Below are positions 11,232 through 33,812 of a DNA stretch of 64,000 nucleotides, in pieces. Position 1 is the first letter of the stretch, and the number at the start of each line of letters is the position of its first letter. The notes below the pieces were generated by a model. The model did not search any database and had not been told where the DNA came from. It worked only from the letters and a program-made list of their open reading frames with translations. Position numbers and translations under genes: made by a program. Origin of the DNA: a virus; IMG/VR virus record IMGVR_UViG_3300034062_004592, positions 21,463 through 85,462 of that record; one strand, given 5' to 3'.

Positions 11232-11686
11232 CTAATACAAAAATCTGTTCAGGTTGCAAACAAGAAAAACCTTTGTCATGTTTTTACTTACGTAGTGATT
11301 CTAAAAACTACAGAAGCAATTGTAAAAATTGCACAAAAATTAAACAAGCAAGAAAGTGGGCTAATGATTTTGAATTTAAAAAACGTGGCATTGCAAGACA
11401 ACGTCGTTGGCAACGTCAAAAATTTTATGGTCTTTCTTTACAGCAAGAGCAAGAACTTTTAAAAATACAAAACAATGCTTGTGAAATTTGTAAAAAACAA
11501 TTTCAATCTGATGCAGATTACCATGTTGATCATTGCCATAAAACAAATGTAATCCGAGGATTGCTTTGTCCTGGTTGCAACAAAGCGTTAGGATTATTCA
11601 AAGAAAACCCTGAAGCACTTAGGCAAGCAGCTATTTATGTCGAAAGTCAAGGAGTCACGTTTCCAGCTAAAACCAAATCCAAATGA
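11228..11686 (+). CDS. Endonuclease VII-like HNH nuclease
   Basis: 152 residues. The C-terminal half is an endonuclease VII/HNH fold: CEIC (85-88), YHVDHCHKTNVIRGLLC with DHCH at 101-104, and CPGCN (114-118). An N-terminal CSGC...CKNC zinc ribbon (7-10, 32-35) may help bind DNA. It could be a junction resolvase or a free-standing homing nuclease. It is A+T-rich and its last 50 bases overlap the start of the DNA polymerase in another frame, which suits a recently inserted homing gene. Confidence 0.85.
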   Translation: MTNTKICSGCKQEKPLSCFYLRSDSKNYRSNCKNCTKIKQARKWANDFEFKKRGIARQRRWQRQKFYGLSLQQEQELLKIQNNACEICKKQFQSDADYHVDHCHKTNVIRGLLCPGCNKALGLFKENPEALRQAAIYVESQGVTFPAKTKSK

Positions 11687-13490
11687 AACGTTTTTAGTTT
11701 TTGATTGTGAAACCAATGGTTTGTATGATCAAGCTACTGTTGTTCATTGTCTTGTGATCTATGACGTCAACAAGCAACAAACTTTTACTTATGGGCCTGA
11801 GTCTATTGATGCTGCTCTTGCTCATTTGGCAACTGCCACTTGTCTTATAGGACATAATATTTGTTTTTTTGACATTCCTGTACTAACAAAGCTTTATCCT
11901 ACTTTCACACACAATGCCAGGGTCATCGATACACTTGTGTGCACTCGATTGATCTGGCCAAAGGAATTACTCAATGACCTTGACACAGAACAATATCCGC
12001 AGGTTCCATCGAAACTGCGGGGATCAGCTTCTCTTAAGGCCTGGGGATGGCGCCTGGCCGATAACAAAATCAACTTTAAAGACTTCTCGCAATACTCTGA
12101 GGAAATGTTGGAGTACTGTGTCCAGGACGTTGTCATTACTACCAGGCTTTGGCAAAAGATCGCAGACGAATACTATCCGCAATCAGCGCTCAAACTTGAG
12201 CATGACTTTGCTATCGCAATTAACCGACAAATTAGATCAGGTATTCCTTTTGATGTTGATGCATCTCTTGATCTTGTGGATGAACTACGCACAAAGCAAC
12301 AAGACATCGAGACAAAGCTAAAAGAAATCTTTCCGCCAATCAAACATGAAACAGTATTCATTCCAAAGGTCAACAACAAAACCAGGGGTTATGTCAAAGG
12401 TGAACCATTTGTCAAGGTTCATTATGAAGAATTCAACCCTGGTTCTCGTCAGCAAATTGTTGATCGTCTACAAGAAAAATACGGATGGGCTCCTGAAAAA
12501 ACAACTGAGAAAGGTAATCCAATTCTTGATGACGATGTACTTGAATCACTTCCATATCCAGAGGCCCAAGTACTGGCTCAATACATGCTGGTCAAAAAAC
12601 GTCTGGGACAAATCGTAGATGGCAACAACGCTTGGAACAAGTTGGTTAATAACGACACTGGTCGCATGCACGGTGATGTTGTTACTAATGGTTGTATCAC
12701 TGGCCGCTGCGCTCATCGCAACCCAAACATGGGTCAAGTCCCTGCTGGTTACTCACCTTACGGTAAAGAATGCCGTTCTTTTTTCCATGCTCCTATGGGT
12801 TGGCAGCTACTTGGTATCGATGCCAAAGCGTTAGAGCTACGTTGTCTTGCTGGATATCTAGCCATTTGGGATGGCGGTGAGTACGCCAAGCTTGTTGTTA
12901 ATCCTGAATCAGATATCCATACAATCAACCAGGAACTATTTGGCGTGGCTACCAGGGATATTTCTAAGCGTTTGCTTTATGGATTGTTGTATGGAGCTGG
13001 TGCACTAAAGGCTGGCACGATTGTGGATCCGAATGAAAAAGATGAAACAGTTCTGCGTCAACTAGGAAGGACTGCAATCAATTCATTCATGAAAGGTGTA
13101 CCTGCATTGCGTCACCTCAAGGAACAAATTGAGAATACACTTGCAGAACGCACGTATTTGATTGGGCTTGATGGTCGGCATTTGTATTGTCGTTCAGCGT
13201 TTAAAGGATTGAATGTGTTGTTGCAATCAGCAGGTGCAATCCTTATGAAGCAAGTTGTTATTACAATTCAAAACAACATCACCAATAACTTGGGCCTGGT
13301 GTATGGAGAAGACTGGGAACAAATGCTGATGATTCATGATGAAGTTCAGTTGGCTGCCAAGCCGGAACACATCTTAAAGATCCAGGAGCAGGCAATGGCT
13401 GCGTTCCCACAAGCACAGGAATTCTTTGGGTTCAGGTGTTTGATTGAAGGCGACTCTCGTGTAGGATCCAACTGGTCTGAAACCCATTGA
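11637..13490 (+). CDS. Family A DNA polymerase (T7-like)
   Basis: 617 residues, close to T7 polymerase (704) but shorter. The 3'-5' exonuclease is complete: D23/E25 in VFDCETNG, IGHN with N74 and D79, and EYCVQDV with Y160 and D164. Polymerase motif A is GIDAKALELR (D395), motif B RDISKRLLYG (R440, K444, Y448), motif C IHDEV (D568, E569). Tyr448 stands where T7 has Tyr526. It copies the phage genome, probably with the SSB at 13704 and the primase-helicase at 31182. No other in-frame start lies near, so the 50-base overlap with the HNH gene seems real. Confidence 0.95.
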   Translation: MSKVKESRFQLKPNPNETFLVFDCETNGLYDQATVVHCLVIYDVNKQQTFTYGPESIDAALAHLATATCLIGHNICFFDIPVLTKLYPTFTHNARVIDTLVCTRLIWPKELLNDLDTEQYPQVPSKLRGSASLKAWGWRLADNKINFKDFSQYSEEMLEYCVQDVVITTRLWQKIADEYYPQSALKLEHDFAIAINRQIRSGIPFDVDASLDLVDELRTKQQDIETKLKEIFPPIKHETVFIPKVNNKTRGYVKGEPFVKVHYEEFNPGSRQQIVDRLQEKYGWAPEKTTEKGNPILDDDVLESLPYPEAQVLAQYMLVKKRLGQIVDGNNAWNKLVNNDTGRMHGDVVTNGCITGRCAHRNPNMGQVPAGYSPYGKECRSFFHAPMGWQLLGIDAKALELRCLAGYLAIWDGGEYAKLVVNPESDIHTINQELFGVATRDISKRLLYGLLYGAGALKAGTIVDPNEKDETVLRQLGRTAINSFMKGVPALRHLKEQIENTLAERTYLIGLDGRHLYCRSAFKGLNVLLQSAGAILMKQVVITIQNNITNNLGLVYGEDWEQMLMIHDEVQLAAKPEHILKIQEQAMAAFPQAQEFFGFRCLIEGDSRVGSNWSETH

Positions 13491-21144: not shown

Positions 21145-21444
21145 TTATGTTGCAAACACTCTTACCGGCTGCTCCGGCGTCACGACATAGGCGTCCCACC
21201 CATCAGGCAGCTCACCGATGTAGTTGACGTGCCAGCCGCTCAGCAGCACGGGTGGGGTAAGCACCTCGCCGGTCTCAGGGTCGTAGGTGCCGCCTGTGTA
21301 GATGGGACCGATGACATCCAGGGCGTGCGTGTGGCTGGCGGTGAGGGGATGCGTGACGCCATCATCGTCGGTGTAAAGAAGGCCAGCAGCATCCAGGGCA
21401 GCCATGCCGGTGGATTCGTCGGGGAAGCGGATGTAGTGGGTCAT
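21145..21444 (-). CDS. Tail-fibre-associated small protein
   Basis: 99 residues, G+C-rich, starting MTHYIRFPDESTGMAALDAA with a GWHVNYIGELPDGWDAYVV C-terminal block. I recall near relatives next to tail fibres in cyanophages and other phages, where they act like fibre-assembly or cap proteins; unverified. Its start overlaps the end of the large fibre gene by 4 bases. Confidence 0.7.
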   Translation of the reverse strand: MTHYIRFPDESTGMAALDAAGLLYTDDDGVTHPLTASHTHALDVIGPIYTGGTYDPETGEVLTPPVLLSGWHVNYIGELPDGWDAYVVTPEQPVRVFAT

Positions 21445-22757
21445 TGCGTGATTGCCTGGAGGGTGCTGTTGGGGAGGCGCTGGGGCCAGTAGGTGAGGCG
21501 GCGGATGGTGCCTCCTTTCTGTACAACAAAACTACTATCTCCTTGAATCGCAAGCCTGCTAAGGGTTGGCATGGACGATGGGTTTGCACTTGTAGAAACA
21601 GCAGAGCCATTGCAAGAGAGCCCTCTTCCGCTGGCGGAAACTGCCAACGCAGCTCGGTTCAAAACGTTTGCCGTGAATGTCCCACCAGCATCCATTCGCC
21701 CTTGGTTTGCAGATGCAACAAGCATGTTTGAGCTTACTCTTTGATTGGCTACGCTAACGCTAAATAGATTGATCGAATTGTTAGCGGTTTCGTCATCAAT
21801 AACAACAATCGAACCTCCAACTGCTGGCTGATCGTATGCTGCAAACACCGTCCCCTCATCCTGCCGATACCAGGAGCTGAAGTTCGCCCCCGTGATGCTG
21901 GCAACGTCCGCGCTGCGGGTGGCGGCTGCGGTTGACGTTGGGATCGCACTGGTCGCAAATGCACCCAGCTCTAGCTGGGGCAGGCCGATGCGGAGGGTGA
22001 TGTCAACAGCCAAGCCAGTGTTAATGTTGCATTGAATGAAAGGCATAAGGGCGGCTACAGTAGCCCCTCCCGATAGTGTTCTAGTAAACGATGGCCTATA
22101 AGACCCCAGTGGTGTAACAGGAATAGTCATGTCCTGTGTGCCACTAACCACCGCAACACCTGCTGATGTGTTTTCCTGCAAAACAAGGCGAATGTTTGTG
22201 AAATTAGCGGTTGAGCCAGCCTGCACTTTGATGTAGTTCGTTAGCGTCCAGGCCTGCCCAGTTAAAGCTGGCACACCCGTGGCGGTTTCAAACACAATGT
22301 TTGTCTGACCTGTGCCTGTAGTTGTGCCGTTAATGCGAAAATCAATGTATGTAATTCCATTTTCCGTGCCGGTGCCGACTACATTTGCCGCTAGACCCGT
22401 ATTGTTTGACTGGTTCCAATTTGTTGGAGGTGTCCCCGGCGTACCAGCCACCGCGCCAACCATCGTGTTGTTGCGGATGCTGTTGGTCCTCTGCTCCTCC
22501 ACCAGCAGGCCCAGGCTTTCGCCGGTTGTGGGGTTGTGGTCAAACCTCGGCACATCCACAGCCGCCGTCTGCAGCGTTCCCGCACTGTCGATGAAGGTCG
22601 CACTGCTGGCGCGGGTAAACGTAACTAAATTTTGCCCAGTTGCAGAATCAATTAAACTTTTAGTAGACGCAAAGTTTAAATCAAGGGCAGAATTTTTAAA
22701 TATAGTAGAGGCAAAGTTTCCAGCTGTTAAAGCTTTTAAATGAGGAAGTATAAACAT
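21441..22757 (-). CDS. Tail fibre / receptor-binding protein
   Basis: 438 residues. TFTRASSATFIDSAG, VPRFDHNPTTGESLGLLVEE and ITGANFSSWYRQDEGTVFA form a widespread pattern in phage fibre proteins: an RASSAT block, an EEQRTN block, a carbohydrate-binding-like jelly roll (LPQLELGAFATSAIPTS) and a SWYRQ lectin-like domain. It should contact the cell surface. Base composition varies along the gene, with G+C-rich patches that suggest domain swapping. Confidence 0.8.
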   Translation of the reverse strand: MFILPHLKALTAGNFASTIFKNSALDLNFASTKSLIDSATGQNLVTFTRASSATFIDSAGTLQTAAVDVPRFDHNPTTGESLGLLVEEQRTNSIRNNTMVGAVAGTPGTPPTNWNQSNNTGLAANVVGTGTENGITYIDFRINGTTTGTGQTNIVFETATGVPALTGQAWTLTNYIKVQAGSTANFTNIRLVLQENTSAGVAVVSGTQDMTIPVTPLGSYRPSFTRTLSGGATVAALMPFIQCNINTGLAVDITLRIGLPQLELGAFATSAIPTSTAAATRSADVASITGANFSSWYRQDEGTVFAAYDQPAVGGSIVVIDDETANNSINLFSVSVANQRVSSNMLVASANQGRMDAGGTFTANVLNRAALAVSASGRGLSCNGSAVSTSANPSSMPTLSRLAIQGDSSFVVQKGGTIRRLTYWPQRLPNSTLQAITQ

Positions 22758-22762
22758 TTTGA

Positions 22763-23158
22763 TCAGCTCGTAGTATCGCCGGTAAGAATGTATTCATTTG
22801 TTACTACGCTAACTAAAGATGCAATTGCATATTGGCCACCTGTTTTATTAGTGCCATTCCGTAAACGTAAAGTTGCGCCGGCTCCAGCGGTTACCGTTAT
22901 TTGTCCTGTTCCGTATTGGACGATGCTGCATGTAAAACGTGCGGATAATCCTGCTGGAATTGTTAATGTAATAGTAGATGAATTTGTAAAAACAACAATT
23001 TTTCCATTGTCATCATTATTTAAAGTGTAAGCAGTAGTTGTTTTTGTTGTTAGTCCAGGGGGATTTAATTGATACGTATCCGCTGAAACGCCAGGAAAAT
23101 TACAGTACTGCTTGTAAATAGCAGTGCCTTCAGAATTTATCAAAGGAAATTTAGACAT
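22763..23158 (-). CDS. Fibre or virion protein
   Basis: 131 residues. Pattern TLTIPAGLSARFTCSIVQYG then GQITVTAGAGATLRLRNG is typical of phage fibre or spike beta modules. Likely a tail-associated structural part. Confidence 0.7.
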   Translation of the reverse strand: MSKFPLINSEGTAIYKQYCNFPGVSADTYQLNPPGLTTKTTTAYTLNNDDNGKIVVFTNSSTITLTIPAGLSARFTCSIVQYGTGQITVTAGAGATLRLRNGTNKTGGQYAIASLVSVVTNEYILTGDTTS

Positions 23159-23197
23159 GTGCGCATCATCTTGTTTTTATAAGTCTAGCAAACCAAA

Positions 23198-23713
23198 TTA
23201 AGCTTGAGCTTCTGTCCAGGAAGGATGCGTGGCGATTGTGTTGGTAGTAACAGCGCTAACGTTGGTTACCCTCATGGATTGGGAAGAAATCTCAAGATGA
23301 GTCGTTAATGTAGGTGGCTGCGGCCAGGTGATGTCGAATGGGTTGGGCGCATCAGCCAGATCGCGCAGGGCCTGGCGGTAGATGGCCCAGGCGTCACGAT
23401 CAGCGCCGAGGTCGTAGTCAGCAATCTGCGTCCAGTCGCTGGCCTTGAGCAGCTCGATGCGCTGATCGCGGACCTTGGCGTGCTGCATTTGCAGCTCGTT
23501 GAAGCTGTAGGGGCGCACCACAAAGGCGCTGCCGTCCCAGTCAATCGTTTCCAGCTTCGGGTTGCACTCGGGGCGCTCGTAGGGGCCGCTGTACCCGGCA
23601 CGCTCCAGCTCGTCAGGCGTGAAGGTGGTGCTGTCGGTGCGGGTGCTGCCGTCCGCAAAGCGGATGCGGTGCGGCAATGGTGCTGGGGCGGCTTGGCGGT
23701 GGGAGTAGAGCAT
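23198..23713 (-). CDS. Phage tail assembly chaperone-like protein
   Basis: 171 residues. The stretch RIELLKASDWTQIADYDLG, then WAIYRQALRDLADAPNPF, matches the Phage_tail_APC type found next to fibres. It probably helps fibre folding or attachment. Residues 1-60 form a separate strand-rich domain. The start abuts the LamG-like gene (shared base 23713). Confidence 0.8.
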   Translation of the reverse strand: MLYSHRQAAPAPLPHRIRFADGSTRTDSTTFTPDELERAGYSGPYERPECNPKLETIDWDGSAFVVRPYSFNELQMQHAKVRDQRIELLKASDWTQIADYDLGADRDAWAIYRQALRDLADAPNPFDITWPQPPTLTTHLEISSQSMRVTNVSAVTTNTIATHPSWTEAQA

Positions 23714-24492
23714 CAGAAGTTCGGGAAGGGACCACTCGGAAGTACATCTGGGCGGGCAACGCCTTTGGTAATGCGGAGATCGTCGATGTAGCCCGGCATG
23801 TAATAAGTTCCAAGGCCAGTAATAAAACGACCTACGTACAGATCATCGTTGTTAATCTTGTTGTAACTTGTTGAGTCTGTAGCCGTTGCGCCAAGTTGTG
23901 TATTGTCTACCAAAAGTCGCAGATTAGTGCCGCTTCTAGTGGCCTTGATGAAATACCATGTATTGACAACTGGGGTCCATGCGCGGCTAGTTATTGTTGA
24001 AGTCGTCCCATCAAATCTATACCAGGCAAGTGTATTATCTGTTTCCCAAAATAACGCCCAACCGGATGTAGTTGGAGACCCGCCCCCGATGGCGCCAACG
24101 CCAAGGCTGACTAATGGAATTAATGAACTAACAGAATCAAACCGAGCCCATAGTTCTACATCAAAATTACCTGTGCCAAGCTCAAATGCACTATTGACCG
24201 GAACAGTCAGAAAGTCTCCTGCTCCGTCAAAGTATCCGCTTGCACCGCCCCATTTGCTCTGCGCCGTGCTTATCTGCGCGTTGCCATTAGCCGTGACTGT
24301 AAACCCGTTGCTGCTGTTATCCGTAAACGTAGTGCTGCTGTTGCTGCCATCCATGTGCAGCAGCAGGCTTACATTGGCAAAGTAGGGATCAGAGCCTTCA
24401 ATAATCGCCCGCTCGTTCGGAAACCACAGACCAGGAGTGGTGCGCTTTTGCTCGCGCCTGAATCCCAGCAGTCCGCCGTTGAAGCCGAGCAT
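23713..24492 (-). CDS. LamG/concanavalin-like lectin fibre protein
   Basis: 259 residues. After an N-terminal virion-linking part (FNGGLLGFRREQKR), a LamG-type jelly roll runs from about residue 40: LLLHMDGSNSSTTFTDNS, SKWGGASGYFDGAGDFLTV, FDVELWARF, GYIDDLRITKGVAR. Such domains bind glycans; here probably host polysaccharide. Confidence 0.85.
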   Translation of the reverse strand: MLGFNGGLLGFRREQKRTTPGLWFPNERAIIEGSDPYFANVSLLLHMDGSNSSTTFTDNSSNGFTVTANGNAQISTAQSKWGGASGYFDGAGDFLTVPVNSAFELGTGNFDVELWARFDSVSSLIPLVSLGVGAIGGGSPTTSGWALFWETDNTLAWYRFDGTTSTITSRAWTPVVNTWYFIKATRSGTNLRLLVDNTQLGATATDSTSYNKINNDDLYVGRFITGLGTYYMPGYIDDLRITKGVARPDVLPSGPFPNF

Positions 24493-24851
24493 CAGCTGAT
24501 GTCCTCGTAGGAGATGACCAGCTCCAGGTCGTTGGCGGCGCTGGCCTGTGCGCGGAGGCTGTGGCCTTCTTCCAGGTAGATGTATGCCTCGCGGGTGACC
24601 AGTACCTGGGTAGCGTCAGCTGGCACGCTGATCGTCTTGCCAATAGCGAAGCCAGTGGTGCCGTTGTAATGCTCCAAGCTGATGTCAGCCGCTGCGGTGC
24701 CGTCCACGTTGGCGCAGTAGACGCTGTTGATCTTTAGCACCTTGCCACTGCTGGCGCCGTTGCTCAGCGCTGCAGCCATCGAGGTGGTGACGGCATACCC
24801 TATTGTTTTGCCATTTATTGTAGTTGGCGTTTTAAGGTTTGGTGCTGCCAC
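24492..24851 (-). CDS. Putative virion protein
   Basis: 119 residues, beta-rich, with TAAADISLEHYNGTTGFAIG and YIYLEEGHSLRAQASA. I associate this pattern with small phage structural proteins. First gene of the minus-strand fibre block; its stop overlaps the start of the LamG gene. Confidence 0.7.
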   Translation of the reverse strand: MAAPNLKTPTTINGKTIGYAVTTSMAAALSNGASSGKVLKINSVYCANVDGTAAADISLEHYNGTTGFAIGKTISVPADATQVLVTREAYIYLEEGHSLRAQASAANDLELVISYEDIS

Positions 24852-24964
24852 TGAAGGATATCTTATTGAAAATAGTCTAGCAAAACTATTTCAAATAATT
24901 GATTTGCTTCGCATTAAACATAAAAAGTCTAACGTTGTTAAACTAGAACTATTGATAAGTAACC

Positions 24965-24994
24965 ATGTATACTCCTGCCCCTCAACAGTACCAG
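24965..24994 (+). repeat. Second copy of the duplicated segment
   Basis: Start of the intact Dps-like gene; pairs with the remnant at 21098-21127. Confidence 0.8.
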
Positions 24995-25519
24995 GCTGCG
25001 GAAGCTCCTCAGGCACAACCTGTTCCTCAGCCCCAGAACAAGCCTAAAGCTCCTGCTAAATCCAAGGCTGGTGGTGATGTGGGTGCATTCATCCAGCAGT
25101 GCATTTCACTTTGCGCTTACCTCAAGGAACTTGAGACCCAATCACATTTGATTCATCTCAACTACGAGGGATCAAACTTCCTTGGGGTCCACGCATTCCT
25201 AAAGGATCAATACGAGGCTCACCTGGAACAGTTTGATACCCTTGCTGAGTTTGTTCGCAGCATGGACTACCTGATGCCAATGTGTGGCTGCGGTCTCAAG
25301 GATGCAGCCCCTCCCATGCAAGCAGTAACCTCTTACAAGGGCAATGACATGCTTGGCGTGTACTACAAGAACCTTGAAGAGCTGGGCATGAAAGCCAAGA
25401 AGCTTGAGCCTGTAGCACAAAAGGTTGGTGCAATTGACATCCAGAACTACATGGCTGATCTTGTTGGCCAAGCATTTAAAGCCGCTTGGTTTGTTAAGGC
25501 TACGTTGAGGAACGGGTGA
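24965..25519 (+). CDS. Dps-family ferritin-like protein
   Basis: 184 residues: a low-complexity Pro/Ala/Gln/Lys N-terminus (1-36), then a four-helix-bundle region. HLNYEGSNFLGVH (64-76) and FDTLAE (90-95) place H64, H76, D91 and E95 at exactly the spacing of the Dps ferroxidase ligands (12, 15 and 4 residues). Dps proteins oxidise and store iron and protect DNA from peroxide. A Cys-rich turn (MPMCGCG) is unusual. Its 5' end is duplicated at 21098, and it neighbours tail genes, so it may be packaged or virion-associated; that is inference. Confidence 0.75.
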   Translation: MYTPAPQQYQAAEAPQAQPVPQPQNKPKAPAKSKAGGDVGAFIQQCISLCAYLKELETQSHLIHLNYEGSNFLGVHAFLKDQYEAHLEQFDTLAEFVRSMDYLMPMCGCGLKDAAPPMQAVTSYKGNDMLGVYYKNLEELGMKAKKLEPVAQKVGAIDIQNYMADLVGQAFKAAWFVKATLRNG

Positions 25520-26439
25520 TGGAACTATTTCAAAAATTTTTAAATCAAGTTAGGCAAAAATATAAAGAAGTAGATAAGACTACAGGCGGTTGGTTGCCTG
25601 GTGGAGGTGTTGCATCTCCTCTGACACGTGCTCGTCAAGAAGGGGAACGGAAAATGGCTGAACGAATTGCTGCACAACAAAGACCTCAATACTCTGGCCA
25701 ACCGGGTCGCTTTGCTGGTCAAGGGCAATTGTTAAATGCTGTCCGGGCCACTACTGAAGCAGGCTCTAATCCTTTTGCCATATTGATGGGAAATCCAGGA
25801 GAAGTTAAACGCGTTGCTGATTATTATCAACAAAATCCAAACTTGCAAAATCAGTACGATCTAAATACAAATATGTTTTTACGTTATCTTTCAGGTACTG
25901 GCGCAAAAGGATTACAGGTAACCCCGGAAGTTGGTAAACAATTATACAAAGATATTCAAACACAAGAACAAAAGTTTCAAATTCCTGATAATCGGGAGAG
26001 AATGATTAATGCAAATCCTTGGACCAAACAAAGTTGGACCAAACAAAATTTTTTAAAAGGCAGGACTCCGGTTTATTACGGAGGACATTCTGAAGCCACT
26101 ACAGAAAATAGTCCTGAAGTTGGTTCTGGCCTTCGTCCTACGCTTTCATATGATAAAGGACAACGTTGGCAACTTCGCAATTCGTTGGGTTCTTTTTGGG
26201 CAGAGCCTACTAATAATGGCTATGCCGTTAATAATGAACGCTACAACTTTATGTATGCCCCTGCAGAAAAAGAAGGAACTAATGTGCCACCCCTATTAGG
26301 CGAAAACCTATTCAAACCAAAAAGCCAAGTGCCAAACAGCATTGCTGATGTAGGAAGAAATCTTGTAAGAGCAGGTTACGGAACTCCATACACAATTAAT
26401 TTACAAGTAAATCCTGAAGGCCAGGTAATCTTTCGTTAA
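25519..26439 (+). CDS. Putative virion-associated protein
   Basis: 306 residues from the ATG overlapping the Dps stop (a GTG one codon earlier is possible). Begins with a helix, then GGWLPGGGVASPLTRARQEG, long Gln/Asn/Pro-rich low-complexity segments, and NLVRAGYGTPYTINLQVNPEG at the end. Not recognised; composition resembles tail or internal virion proteins such as that at 61766. The ends of this gene and the HNH at 26436 overlap by 4 bases. Confidence 0.7.
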   Translation: MELFQKFLNQVRQKYKEVDKTTGGWLPGGGVASPLTRARQEGERKMAERIAAQQRPQYSGQPGRFAGQGQLLNAVRATTEAGSNPFAILMGNPGEVKRVADYYQQNPNLQNQYDLNTNMFLRYLSGTGAKGLQVTPEVGKQLYKDIQTQEQKFQIPDNRERMINANPWTKQSWTKQNFLKGRTPVYYGGHSEATTENSPEVGSGLRPTLSYDKGQRWQLRNSLGSFWAEPTNNGYAVNNERYNFMYAPAEKEGTNVPPLLGENLFKPKSQVPNSIADVGRNLVRAGYGTPYTINLQVNPEGQVIFR

Positions 26440-26684
26440 TCACTCCAGTGTTCAAGCCTGTGGCAGTTGCAGCACAACGGAATACATTTATTGATTTCTT
26501 CTTGGATACGACGCCAGGCGTATCCGTGATTCACCATACTTGACACATTTAAATCCTTGTCACCTATATGGTGAAACTCAAGGACTCTATAGTCTTCCAG
26601 GGCGCAGTGCTCACACTTAAGAGTCTTCTTGTATTCCAAGAATCTCTTTCGGTTTTCTTGTAGCCTGCGTGTACTTGTTGGCAC
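26436..26684 (-). CDS. Small HNH endonuclease
   Basis: 82 residues with GTG start. CEHC (24-27), EFHHIGDKD (36-44) and CCNCHRLEH close to the C-terminus give a complete HNH with zinc-binding cysteines. Probably a mobile homing-type nuclease. A structured, promoter-bearing region lies just upstream. Confidence 0.8.
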   Translation of the reverse strand: MPTSTRRLQENRKRFLEYKKTLKCEHCALEDYRVLEFHHIGDKDLNVSSMVNHGYAWRRIQEEINKCIPLCCNCHRLEHWSD

Positions 26685-29516: not shown

Positions 29517-29654
29517 TTACAAATCAACCCGAGTATAAGAGATATCTTCGTTCTGTAAGCTTTGTTCAAATGCGTCGGCTTCAATGGTTTCAATGTCTTC
29601 CACTACGGGCCAGCCGTCAAGGTCGTAGTAGAAACGGGTGAGATTACAGGACAT
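29517..29654 (-). CDS. Small acidic protein
   Basis: 45 residues (MSCNLTRFYYDLDGWPVVED and an acidic end), overlapping the hli 3' end by 11 bases. Plausible member of the hli operon; not recognised. Confidence 0.5.
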   Translation of the reverse strand: MSCNLTRFYYDLDGWPVVEDIETIEADAFEQSLQNEDISYTRVDL

Positions 29655-29892
29655 GGACAAGATTCCAAATGGAAGATTTGGTGGTTAACTCGGTGATTAA
29701 GATGATGGTTACTGCTAGCATGGCAAGCCTTCCGTTGACACGCTCTGCATACCAGTTGAAATCATCTGGGTGAGTGGGTGGCTTCCAGAAGACTAGGTCT
29801 GGGAGATACTCCTTGACAATTTCAGTAATGATCCAGGAGGTGCAGCTGTACCATCCACGGATTGAGTACCAGAACTTATCGAGTCCTGTCAT
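29644..29892 (-). CDS. hli: High-light-inducible protein
   Basis: 82 residues. The C-terminal helix carries the chlorophyll-binding motif of the Hli/CAB family, AERVNGRLAMLAV with E50, N53 and R55, followed by ILITELTT. The N-terminal 45 residues are an unusual extension. Hli proteins bind chlorophyll and protect photosystem II and chlorophyll-synthesis complexes in the thylakoid membrane; cyanophages often carry them to keep photosynthesis going. Overlaps the membrane gene upstream by 4 bases. Confidence 0.9.
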   Translation of the reverse strand: MTGLDKFWYSIRGWYSCTSWIITEIVKEYLPDLVFWKPPTHPDDFNWYAERVNGRLAMLAVTIILITELTTKSSIWNLVHVL

Positions 29893-30045: not shown

Positions 30046-30900
30046 ATGGTTGCTAAGATAGATTTATCGGATCCTTGGATTAAGGTCCAGGATAAGCAAC
30101 CGGATCTCATGCGGAACCTAAACAGGGCCGCAACCAGAATTACGCTTAACGGCAAAAGGCATTACACCACGCCGTTACCCACTGGCCCAGCCCCGTCTGT
30201 AACTACAATCATATCTGAGACTGCTTCCGAAGCAAACAAGCGGAAGCTCGAAATGTGGTCAAAAAATAATCCAGGTGTTAAGGAGGCCGCTGCTGAAAGG
30301 GGGACTGCCATCCACTATGGTATGGAGCAGTACCTGAAAGGGAACAAAACCCCGGAGATCGCTGATGAGTACCAAGACTTTTGGCAAGGCATGCCGTCAA
30401 TTCTGGATCAGTTTGACGAAGTCTTATGGGCAGAGACGCCTGTGGTTGATCGGTTTAAATTCACTATTGGCGCTGATGACGTTGCTCGCGTTTGGGGTTG
30501 CGATCCTGACGGGCGAGCTTGGGCTGGTGCTCCCGACATTATCGGTGTGGTTAATAACAAGCTTACTCTCGCTGATTTGAAGACCAGCGTCAAACCCTAC
30601 AGTCGCAAGTGGCCTAAAGACTTGGAGAAGGGGTCGCCTGAATGGCGTGATCTCTTGGGTGGTCACATGAAATTTAAAAAAACTTTGAAGCAGCTCGCAG
30701 CTTACGACTTGGCTATTACCCAGACGCTTGGCATCAAGGTCCAGCAGGCTGCCATCTTGGTATCAACACCGGTGCGTACACAAGTCTTTAAGATCTCCAG
30801 GAATTTTCTTAATGCTTTGCATGCGGATTGGCACAAACTGGTTGAAGAGTATTACACGCAAATGGACGAGTATGGTCGGCAGGACCAGGATCTTGTCTGA
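30046..30900 (+). CDS. PD-(D/E)XK exonuclease
   Basis: 284 residues. Motifs in order: RGTAIHYGMEQ (H90), APDIIG (D164), LADLKTS (D177-x-K179) and QLAAYDLA (Q216...Y220). This is a Cas4/RecB-like or MGME1-like nuclease core that cuts DNA ends with two metal ions. In phages it serves recombination or host DNA breakdown. Divergent from the hli operon, with an A+T-rich promoter region (GATAATATA) between 30000 and 30045. Confidence 0.85.
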   Translation: MVAKIDLSDPWIKVQDKQPDLMRNLNRAATRITLNGKRHYTTPLPTGPAPSVTTIISETASEANKRKLEMWSKNNPGVKEAAAERGTAIHYGMEQYLKGNKTPEIADEYQDFWQGMPSILDQFDEVLWAETPVVDRFKFTIGADDVARVWGCDPDGRAWAGAPDIIGVVNNKLTLADLKTSVKPYSRKWPKDLEKGSPEWRDLLGGHMKFKKTLKQLAAYDLAITQTLGIKVQQAAILVSTPVRTQVFKISRNFLNALHADWHKLVEEYYTQMDEYGRQDQDLV

Positions 30901-30999: not shown

Positions 31000-31185
31000 A
31001 TGGAAATCTACGTTTCCGTTGGTGAGTGGATGAATAGTCTTCAGAATCGCATGAATAGTGCGATGGATGGGGACTGTTTTTATCTGCCCACCCCTATGCA
31101 TCTTCATGCTTTTTTCTTGGTGAAGGACCAGGCATTTGCCAATAAAGACTTTAAAGTGGAACTCATGCCATCAGTTAACGAATGA
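31000..31185 (+). CDS. Small hypothetical protein
   Basis: 61 residues, mixed helix/strand, not recognised. Its stop overlaps the ATG of the primase-helicase gene by 4 bases, suggesting coupled translation. Confidence 0.65.
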   Translation: MEIYVSVGEWMNSLQNRMNSAMDGDCFYLPTPMHLHAFFLVKDQAFANKDFKVELMPSVNE

Positions 31186-33812
31186 CTAATACTTCTCAGC
31201 TCTCGCTCCGGCCCGGCGAAATTCGTTTTGATTACATCCCAGCGGATTGGCCTCTTACTCCGCTTGGTGCCAACAAGGATCCGTATGTCGCTGGATGGCA
31301 AAACAAACCGTTTAGTGTCAAGGAAATTGAAAATGAATTGACAAGCGGTAAGTGTAAAGCTATTGGTCTGCTCGGTGGTCCTGTCTACAACCATCCGTAC
31401 GGTTTCATCTGGATTGACATTGATGGGCCATCGGTGTACCAGCTGGTGGAGGAGTTGGCCGATGCACCTTTCATTGAGGTGATGCCGCCCACGCTGACAA
31501 TTTTCAGTGGGAAAGAAGGTAGGGAGCGTAGGTTATACCGGGTTAGTCGTGAGAAACATAAGCACATCGTTCGGAATAAGTACACGTGGCACGCGGCAGT
31601 AGACAAAGAGAAGCTTGAGATTCTGTGGAAACGGCACCAGGGTGTGTTAATGGGGTTACATCCGGAAACGGATGGGTACTACACAGCTCCAGACCTTGGG
31701 TTTGAGTGGGCAAAGGCTGTGCCTGAAATGCCTGACTTCTTGTTGAATGCCATCATCAATAAGAATGTCAAGCAAGGTATTCCGGCAAAGGAAACAACGC
31801 GTGTTATCGGTCCAGGGTTTGCGATCAACAGTGTTGTAGACCTTGACCGGGATATGAAACTTGCCGCAGAGGCAATGTGGGGTATGCCTCCAGAGGCGGC
31901 GGATGACTATGACATCTGGATTACGGTCGGTCAATCACTCCATAATCTCGATGAATCACTCCTTGATCAGTGGGAAGAATGGTCCAAGCAGTCGGACAAG
32001 TATAGGGAGGGGGAGTGTCACCGGCGATGGCTGTCGTTTACTCGTGGCTCTGGTCGCAGCATTGGCTCACTGATTCACGTTGCTCGTGAGCAGGGGTGGC
32101 AGCCGTCCCAGGAGTATAGGGGGCTGAGTGTTGATGATGCGACATTAGAGCATGCTTCAAAATTATTGGCTGAAATTGATCTGGAAGAATCTCAAATGAC
32201 TCCCGTAACCGCTCCATGTGCTGCATCCGATGCCACTCAGACAAATCAATGGCAGTCGCAGGAGCTGGACACAAAAAACATGAAGTCAAAAGAAGAGAAG
32301 AAAACGTCAAAAAACCCGTCATCCAGCCAAATCGTAGATCATTTGCGCTCAACATATAACGGAGATCTGCGCTTTAGTCAAGCCCACGGTCAATTCTTTA
32401 TTTATGCTAAAGAAAGTGACGGGCTTTGGTCGCCTCTCACGAAGATCGAAATGATGGGTGACATTCGGGAAAAGCTGCAAGTACTGCACCTTCCCGGTGG
32501 ATTCACTTCTAATTTGATGAATGACATCTACCTGCAGCTCCAGGCGGTGTTGGTGTTTGATGATTGGTATGACGGTTCCAACTACCTGTTGTTTACCAAT
32601 GGGGTGCTGGATATTGAGAAGAAGGAGTTACTTCCGTTCAATCGGGGGATGCACCTGACCCAGCAAATGCCTTATCGGTATGATCCAGCGGCTGGGTGTG
32701 AAGATATCATTAAGTGGCTGAAGCATGTGCAGCACGGTAGCTGGGAACGTGTTCAGGTGTTACGTGCATGGTTGCGTGCCACGCTACTGGGGCGTTATGA
32801 GATCCAGAAGTTTGTGGAGATTGTTGGCCCCGGTAAGTCCGGTAAATCGACCTATGCAAACCTGGCTGTGGCATTGGTTGGTAAGCAGAACACCTACTCA
32901 ACAGACTTTGAGAATCTGGAGAAGAACCGGTTTGAGGCTGCAAGCTACATGGGTAAGAAGCTTCTGCTGTTCCAGGATGCGGATAGGTGGGGCGGATCGG
33001 TATCAAAGCTGAAGGCAATTACCGGTAATGATTGGATCCGTAGTGAACGCAAGTATCAAAGCGAAAGTCAGGATCCGTTTCAGTATCATGGAGTTGTGAT
33101 GATTACAGCTAATGAAGCTATTCAATCAACTGATTACACTTCTGGCCTTGCGCGTCGCCGCCTTACTATTCCGTTCGACCGTCCGTTTGAGGGCGGTCAG
33201 GCAGAACAAAAGGAACTGATTAAGTTCGATTCCAAGGGTGTTCCCCAGGGTGTGTTCGCTCCCTTGTTGCCAGGGTTGGTGAACTGGTTGTTGGATATGA
33301 CTGAAGATGACATGCGTGCTTGTCTCATGGAAACCGGTAAGAAGATTGATTTCTTCCGTAAGTATGAGAAGCAGCAAAGCCTGCGTTCTAATCCACTGTT
33401 GGATTGGATGGATCACAAGTTGGTGTTCCAGCCGAATGTGATGACGCACGTTGGCTTCTGTCAGCAAAATCCGAATGGAACTGGCGGCTATTACAAGGAC
33501 AATACGCGTTGGTTGTATGCCAGCTATGCGGAGTTCTGTCGCAACTGCAACGTGGGCATCATGTCACGCGGCAGGTTTGAGCCCTTGTTCTTGGATATTT
33601 GCAAGCACCAGCTCAAACTAAACGTCTACTCCAAGAAGGCGGCGTCTGGTATGCAGGTCTTTAACATTGCCATCAAGGAGTCGAATATTGACAGGTACTT
33701 ACAGCTGCCTTCGGTTGTGGAATTTGCAGCAAACCCTGACCGTTATAAGGATCAATACCCTGAGCTTTTTGTACCTACTGGTGAGACAATAGAGAATGAT
33801 GCAACAATGTAG
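31182..33812 (+). CDS. P4-type primase-helicase
   Basis: 876 residues. The N-terminal primase-polymerase (AEP) part has FIWIDIDG at 75-82 (D79, D81) and a later basic pocket. The middle contains DYDIWITVGQSLHN, a PriCT-like linker. The SF3/D5 helicase has Walker A GPGKSGKST (549-557), Walker B LLLFQDAD, and sensor-region MITANEA with the arginine finger in LARRRLTIPFD. It should prime and unwind phage DNA. Length and order fit phage and plasmid P4-type proteins. It overlaps both neighbours. Confidence 0.9.
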   Translation: MTNTSQLSLRPGEIRFDYIPADWPLTPLGANKDPYVAGWQNKPFSVKEIENELTSGKCKAIGLLGGPVYNHPYGFIWIDIDGPSVYQLVEELADAPFIEVMPPTLTIFSGKEGRERRLYRVSREKHKHIVRNKYTWHAAVDKEKLEILWKRHQGVLMGLHPETDGYYTAPDLGFEWAKAVPEMPDFLLNAIINKNVKQGIPAKETTRVIGPGFAINSVVDLDRDMKLAAEAMWGMPPEAADDYDIWITVGQSLHNLDESLLDQWEEWSKQSDKYREGECHRRWLSFTRGSGRSIGSLIHVAREQGWQPSQEYRGLSVDDATLEHASKLLAEIDLEESQMTPVTAPCAASDATQTNQWQSQELDTKNMKSKEEKKTSKNPSSSQIVDHLRSTYNGDLRFSQAHGQFFIYAKESDGLWSPLTKIEMMGDIREKLQVLHLPGGFTSNLMNDIYLQLQAVLVFDDWYDGSNYLLFTNGVLDIEKKELLPFNRGMHLTQQMPYRYDPAAGCEDIIKWLKHVQHGSWERVQVLRAWLRATLLGRYEIQKFVEIVGPGKSGKSTYANLAVALVGKQNTYSTDFENLEKNRFEAASYMGKKLLLFQDADRWGGSVSKLKAITGNDWIRSERKYQSESQDPFQYHGVVMITANEAIQSTDYTSGLARRRLTIPFDRPFEGGQAEQKELIKFDSKGVPQGVFAPLLPGLVNWLLDMTEDDMRACLMETGKKIDFFRKYEKQQSLRSNPLLDWMDHKLVFQPNVMTHVGFCQQNPNGTGGYYKDNTRWLYASYAEFCRNCNVGIMSRGRFEPLFLDICKHQLKLNVYSKKAASGMQVFNIAIKESNIDRYLQLPSVVEFAANPDRYKDQYPELFVPTGETIENDATM

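Follow-up and report, generated by a model that had tools for sequence, protein, structure and literature searches.

The usual action of Dps proteins is to consume Fe2+ together with H2O2 (PMC7762939). Both ferroxidase histidines come from one subunit and the acidic ligands from its neighbour (PMC9140674). In Escherichia coli the second site is made up of K48, D67 and D78' (PMC9140674, PMC6150300), and an Asp or Glu at position 67 is the canonical site-B residue (PMC6675082). Dps proteins have also been described in Lactobacillus phages (PMC6669764) and in gut phages (PMC8008677), with a protective role that has been proposed but not proven. These and other phage Dps proteins (further PHROG 3636 members from Streptomyces phages and Aeromonas phage APT65; those of Lactobacillus phages Semele and LP65 and of gut 'Gratiaviridae') share the Dps fold with the protein described here, and those tested also share its PHROG. 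Their sequence similarity to it is remote, and the phages that carry them have non-photosynthetic hosts.

The closest described system is that of Synechococcus phage S-EIV1, the sole strong match among phage isolates. Its protein AHV82153 (KJ410740.1), annotated as a 'DNA-binding ferritin-like protein', is an orthologue that is 69% identical across 80% of its length. We analysed a stretch of 64,000 nucleotides (the window) from a virus record of 85,462 bases. The source virus is an S-EIV1-type cyanophage, and its hosts are freshwater picocyanobacteria. The features of the window are the following.

21441..24851, minus strand: tail-fibre cassette (438-aa tail protein, tail-fibre assembly protein and other virion-type proteins), abutting dps
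24936..24951, plus strand: conserved -10-like element TGTTAAACTAGAACTA just upstream of dps, conserved across 87 distinct upstream regions
24965..25519, plus strand: dps-like miniferritin gene, 184 aa, ATG start
24965..25075, plus strand: Pro/Ala/Gln-rich, Lys-containing N-terminal tail of the Dps protein (residues 1-37), net charge +3, predicted disordered
25516..26439, plus strand: translationally coupled gene, a member of a polymorphic slot; it starts with an ATG at 25519 that overlaps the stop codon of dps
29644..29892, minus strand: Hli (high-light-inducible) protein with an AERVNGRLAM motif, a photoprotection context

AHV82153 has the same length and the same H/H/D/E set as the window Dps, but carries Gly instead of Lys at position 80. 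The S-EIV1 locus likewise has a PHROG tail protein upstream at the same place beside dps and on the opposite strand, a coupled gene downstream, and a primase further on; it differs in the gene that occupies the downstream slot. A sequence-only reading of the window had suggested that this arrangement was undescribed, a view that does not survive the annotated S-EIV1 orthologue in GenBank and the Dps proteins of Lactobacillus and gut phages cited above.

A Dps miniferritin gene

The 184-aa ORF at 24965-25519 is a real gene that encodes a Dps miniferritin. Residues H64, H76, D91 and E95 are spaced by 12, 15 and 4 positions, with YEGSNF between the two histidines. This spacing, to which the sequence-only reading had drawn attention together with the EGSNF-like turn, is unique to this ORF among the 286 in the window that reach 60 aa; when all of the window's ORFs were shuffled, 0.06 matches per window arose. 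The protein scores 42.4 bits for Pfam Ferritin (PF00210; cut-off 24.5, E=8.3e-11) and E=4.6e-27 for PHROG 3636, whereas its match to the NCBIfam Dps equivalogs is weak, at 18 bits for a cut-off of 114. Its best sequence matches in the PDB are HP-NAP, Campylobacter jejuni Dps and Treponema TpF1.

The AlphaFold2 monomer prediction, built on a 39-row alignment, follows the Dps plan of four helices and a short BC helix, without helix E (helices at 39-66, 72-99, 108-113, 126-154 and 157-183). The core has pLDDT above 90. The top Foldseek matches in the PDB are exclusively Dps proteins, including P. aeruginosa PA0962, TpF1, S. aureus, T. elongatus, HP-NAP and B. subtilis MrgA, with TM scores on target length of 0.72-0.92 and mostly 0.8-0.9. 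The original assignment to Dps-like ferritins is thus upheld by the two family matches, the four-helix core and the restriction of the best solved folds to Dps; the checks proposed along with it, structure prediction and a Dps profile search, gave a ferritin-like fold and a PF00210 match above cut-off. Convergence of the ligands is not readable from the monomer model because the histidines and the acids sit on different subunits.

The Pro/Ala/Gln low-complexity head noted earlier is also present, and residues 1-35 have pLDDT below 50. Among 94 distinct homologues the tail has a net charge of +2 to +4 in 68, and the freshwater clade carries KPKxPxKSK. In 25, mostly marine relatives, the tail is acidic or neutral (negative in 23 of the 94). 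DNA binding is therefore probably not a family-wide trait, since marine tails are mostly neutral or acidic; judging by tail charge, only the basic tails of the freshwater clade make it plausible. Because this charge varies between clades, iron chemistry is a likelier shared function than DNA binding.

An altered iron site

The 94 distinct homologues were aligned with HP-NAP, C. jejuni Dps and what we take to be the E. coli Dps reference sequence, on which the published ligand positions fall in register. In this sequence register H64, H76, D91 and E95 align with E. coli H51, H63, D78 and E82 and are invariant in all 94 homologues. The K48 position is His throughout the phage family, and D158, the equivalent of E. 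coli D143, is invariant, as are Y124 and a further set, H61, H86 and C107, a combination that E. coli Dps does not have. At the position of the site-B acid (E. coli position 67) the window protein has K80. Across the family this residue is Lys in 76 sequences, Gly in 16, Arg in one and Gln in one, and it is acidic in none of the 94. The Trp52 position is L65 in the window protein and either Leu (63) or Phe (31) among the 94.

The four-residue core is thus intact and the second site non-canonical, as H/H/D/E is kept and position 67 is never acidic. The sequence-only reading had described the ferroxidase ligands as complete. This stands for the four invariant residues, but not for the site-B acid and the Trp, which are missing. 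Loss of the canonical acid implies a second iron site that would be weaker or reshaped. With that acid absent from 94 of 94 sequences and the FOC Trp replaced, ferroxidase kinetics therefore cannot be assumed.

HP-NAP, C. jejuni Dps and TpF1 share with the phage family the fold and the H51/H63/D78/E82 equivalents, and the first two also have His at the K48 position. However, the acid at 67 and the Trp52 of HP-NAP and C. jejuni Dps give way to K/G/R/Q and L/F in the phage family, which also has the invariant H86 and Y124. Asp is kept at position 67 in the four PHROG 3636 members sampled, those of Streptomyces phages Mildred21, Emma1919 and Tomas and of APT65. NpDps4, which belongs with TeDpsA and TlDps1 to the cyanobacterial His-type FOC group, also lacks an acid at 67 (Asn), and this group resembles the phage protein in having a Cys near helix BC. 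Its hallmark, however, is His78 in place of Asp78. A His-type FOC was considered for the phage family and rejected, D91 being kept in all 94 sequences.

Genomic context and expression

The gene lies at record position 46.4 kb, on the plus strand. On the same strand are genes for DNA polymerase (11637-13490), exonuclease (30046-30900) and primase (31182-33812). Between 2.2 and 8.6 kb of the record, about 38-44 kb away, the minus strand encodes the terminase, the major head protein and a virion structural protein. Thus dps belongs to the plus-strand replication half, opposite the head genes. Its earlier placement at the scar of the fibre module between virion genes is correct insofar as it abuts the tail-fibre cassette; its other neighbours are replication genes. 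The hli gene, 4 kb from dps, is also found in several related records.

Conservation upstream of dps peaks at -28 to -14 from the start codon in the 87 distinct regions, and the flanking bases vary. From this conservation, the TGNTAAACTAGAAYTA-like element is probably an extended -10 and the gene's own promoter. A scan for sigma-70 promoters did not pick it up.

Distribution and selection

Relatives of the window Dps are encoded on at least 211 IMG/VR stretches, and a more divergent set was reached through a marine relative. Related records were also selected by primase instead of dps, and dps was present in 11 of 13 and 34 of 40 of these, the primase query itself coming from dps-bearing phages. 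With record length as a proxy for genome completeness, dps was found in all 17 primase-selected records of at least 78 kb, and the records that lack it are all 58 kb or shorter. One dps copy had been flagged for a stop, but its ORF of 161 aa is intact. Over helices A-B, 27 usable pairs gave a median dN/dS of about 0.05. By these sequence measures dps is under purifying selection in the S-EIV1-type lineage, at a conserved place. Since all near-full-length members of this widespread cyanophage lineage have kept the gene, it is likelier to be important to the phage than a passing accessory gene would be.

No close cellular relative turned up when 84,980 genomes were searched with the Dps protein of the window. 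An alignment-based genome scan gave two contigs only, PAZU01000034.1 and PAZU01000030.1, at 43-47%. Both are binned in a 'Euryarchaeota' MAG, yet the gene content around their dps relatives is virus-like, and they are probably mis-binned phage.

In a literature search that extended to work other than the S-EIV1 paper (ISME J 2015), we found no description of Dps as a core gene of the S-EIV1 lineage or of a non-canonical ferroxidase centre in every member. Both observations may already be published in part. What appears to be new is the combination of dps in 17 of 17 records of at least 78 kb, its conserved place, purifying selection and the altered site.

Proposed role of the phage Dps

We consider it fairly probable that Dps is fixed in the S-EIV1 lineage and acts in the infected, illuminated cell, where it consumes Fe2+ and peroxide and thereby protects phage DNA. 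The protein would be made inside the infected cell from its own promoter and would assemble into a 12-subunit cage. Fe2+ would be bound between subunits, at H64/H76 of one and D91'/E95' of the other, and oxidised with H2O2 or O2, and the ferric iron would be stored inside the cage. Phage replication takes place in a photosynthetic cell that is illuminated and rich in iron, and both Fenton reagents would in this way be removed during it; with less Fenton damage, phage DNA and host machinery could persist up to lysis. The cage may also be tethered to DNA in the freshwater clade, by way of the Lys-containing tail. The sequence-only reading had suggested protection when the host is under light stress, and this idea is supported by the fold, the family matches, the invariant ferroxidase residues, the cyanophage lineage and the nearby hli gene. 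If true, the consumption of iron and peroxide during infection would offer a testable handle on phage photo-oxidative stress and on the fate of host iron at lysis. Such a test is feasible because S-EIV1 and its host are reported as isolated cultures.

The substitutions at positions 67 and 52 could instead mean that the cage is kept with its ferroxidase crippled or altered, and that the main job is compaction and protection of DNA or manipulation of the host nucleoid, for which the Lys-containing tail of the freshwater clade would be suited. We regard this as unlikely: a purely structural role would not need H64, H76, D91 and E95, which never vary, and the acidic tails of marine relatives make DNA binding the less conserved trait. 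Supply or storage of iron for iron-dependent phage or host enzymes, or handling of another metal, would agree with the cage architecture and with the invariant H61, H86 and C107. However, Dps cages store little iron by comparison with 24-mer ferritins, which hold far more. Consumption of Fe2+ and H2O2, the usual action of Dps proteins (PMC7762939), also speaks against such a role in place of stress protection, and we judge it improbable.

Still more doubtful is a role in the virion itself, where Dps would carry iron or shield the packaged DNA, comparable to the Ferrojan Horse idea. The adjoining tail-fibre cassette and a coupled downstream gene that could encode a delivered protein would fit, as would the Dps-like domains inside 'prohead protease' proteins of other uncultured phages (BFVD A0A6J7WPK9, A0A6J7XDU5, A0A6J7WIS1); these proteins may be fusions or mis-names. 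Yet the strand and neighbourhood of dps are those of replication genes, with head and packaging genes far off on the opposite strand, and the gene has a promoter-like element of its own. A search for a virion role of Dps found no support and no virion data, and the earlier suggestion that the protein brings iron into or out of the virion gained nothing in its favour. On a further reading, the Dps gene of S-EIV1-type phages might be obligatory in the replication phase and encode a re-wired centre, with acid 67 lost and H61, K80 and H86 close by in the sequence, whose iron or oxidant chemistry is unlike that of host Dps. Dps would then be a core phage function, not an occasional accessory one, and perhaps exercised with the coupled downstream protein. 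This proposal is tentative, and we would not expect it to hold in full.

A polymorphic slot downstream of dps

The gene that follows dps is often coupled to it by stop/start overlaps, TGATG or TAATG. The encoded proteins are mosaic or unrelated and range from about 90 to 810 aa (the window and related loci L004, L011, L031, L043, L044, L048, L050 and L082). Pfam matches above cut-off were absent from the slot proteins tested, and the predicted structure of the window's downstream protein is of low confidence (pLDDT 62). One group of 14 slot proteins shares about 35 N-terminal residues (FQxFLNxVxxxYKxADKxxGGWLPGGGTASPL; 25519-25620 in the window) and differs in the remainder, which in some carries HExxH-like motifs. 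The same module heads other genes in related phages, sometimes two per phage (L030:8549-9637, L030:11909-12673, L060:9749-10666 and others), and could be a targeting or loading peptide. A shared C-terminal tag was also suspected and was set aside, as just 18 of 36 slot proteins end in Arg.

The S-EIV1 slot protein AHV82152 (L082:12444-13910) is labelled 'sulfate adenylyltransferase', a name without Pfam or NCBIfam support. Just past the slot lies a small HNH-like ORF (26436-26684, minus strand), which is conserved in 78 of 119 loci.
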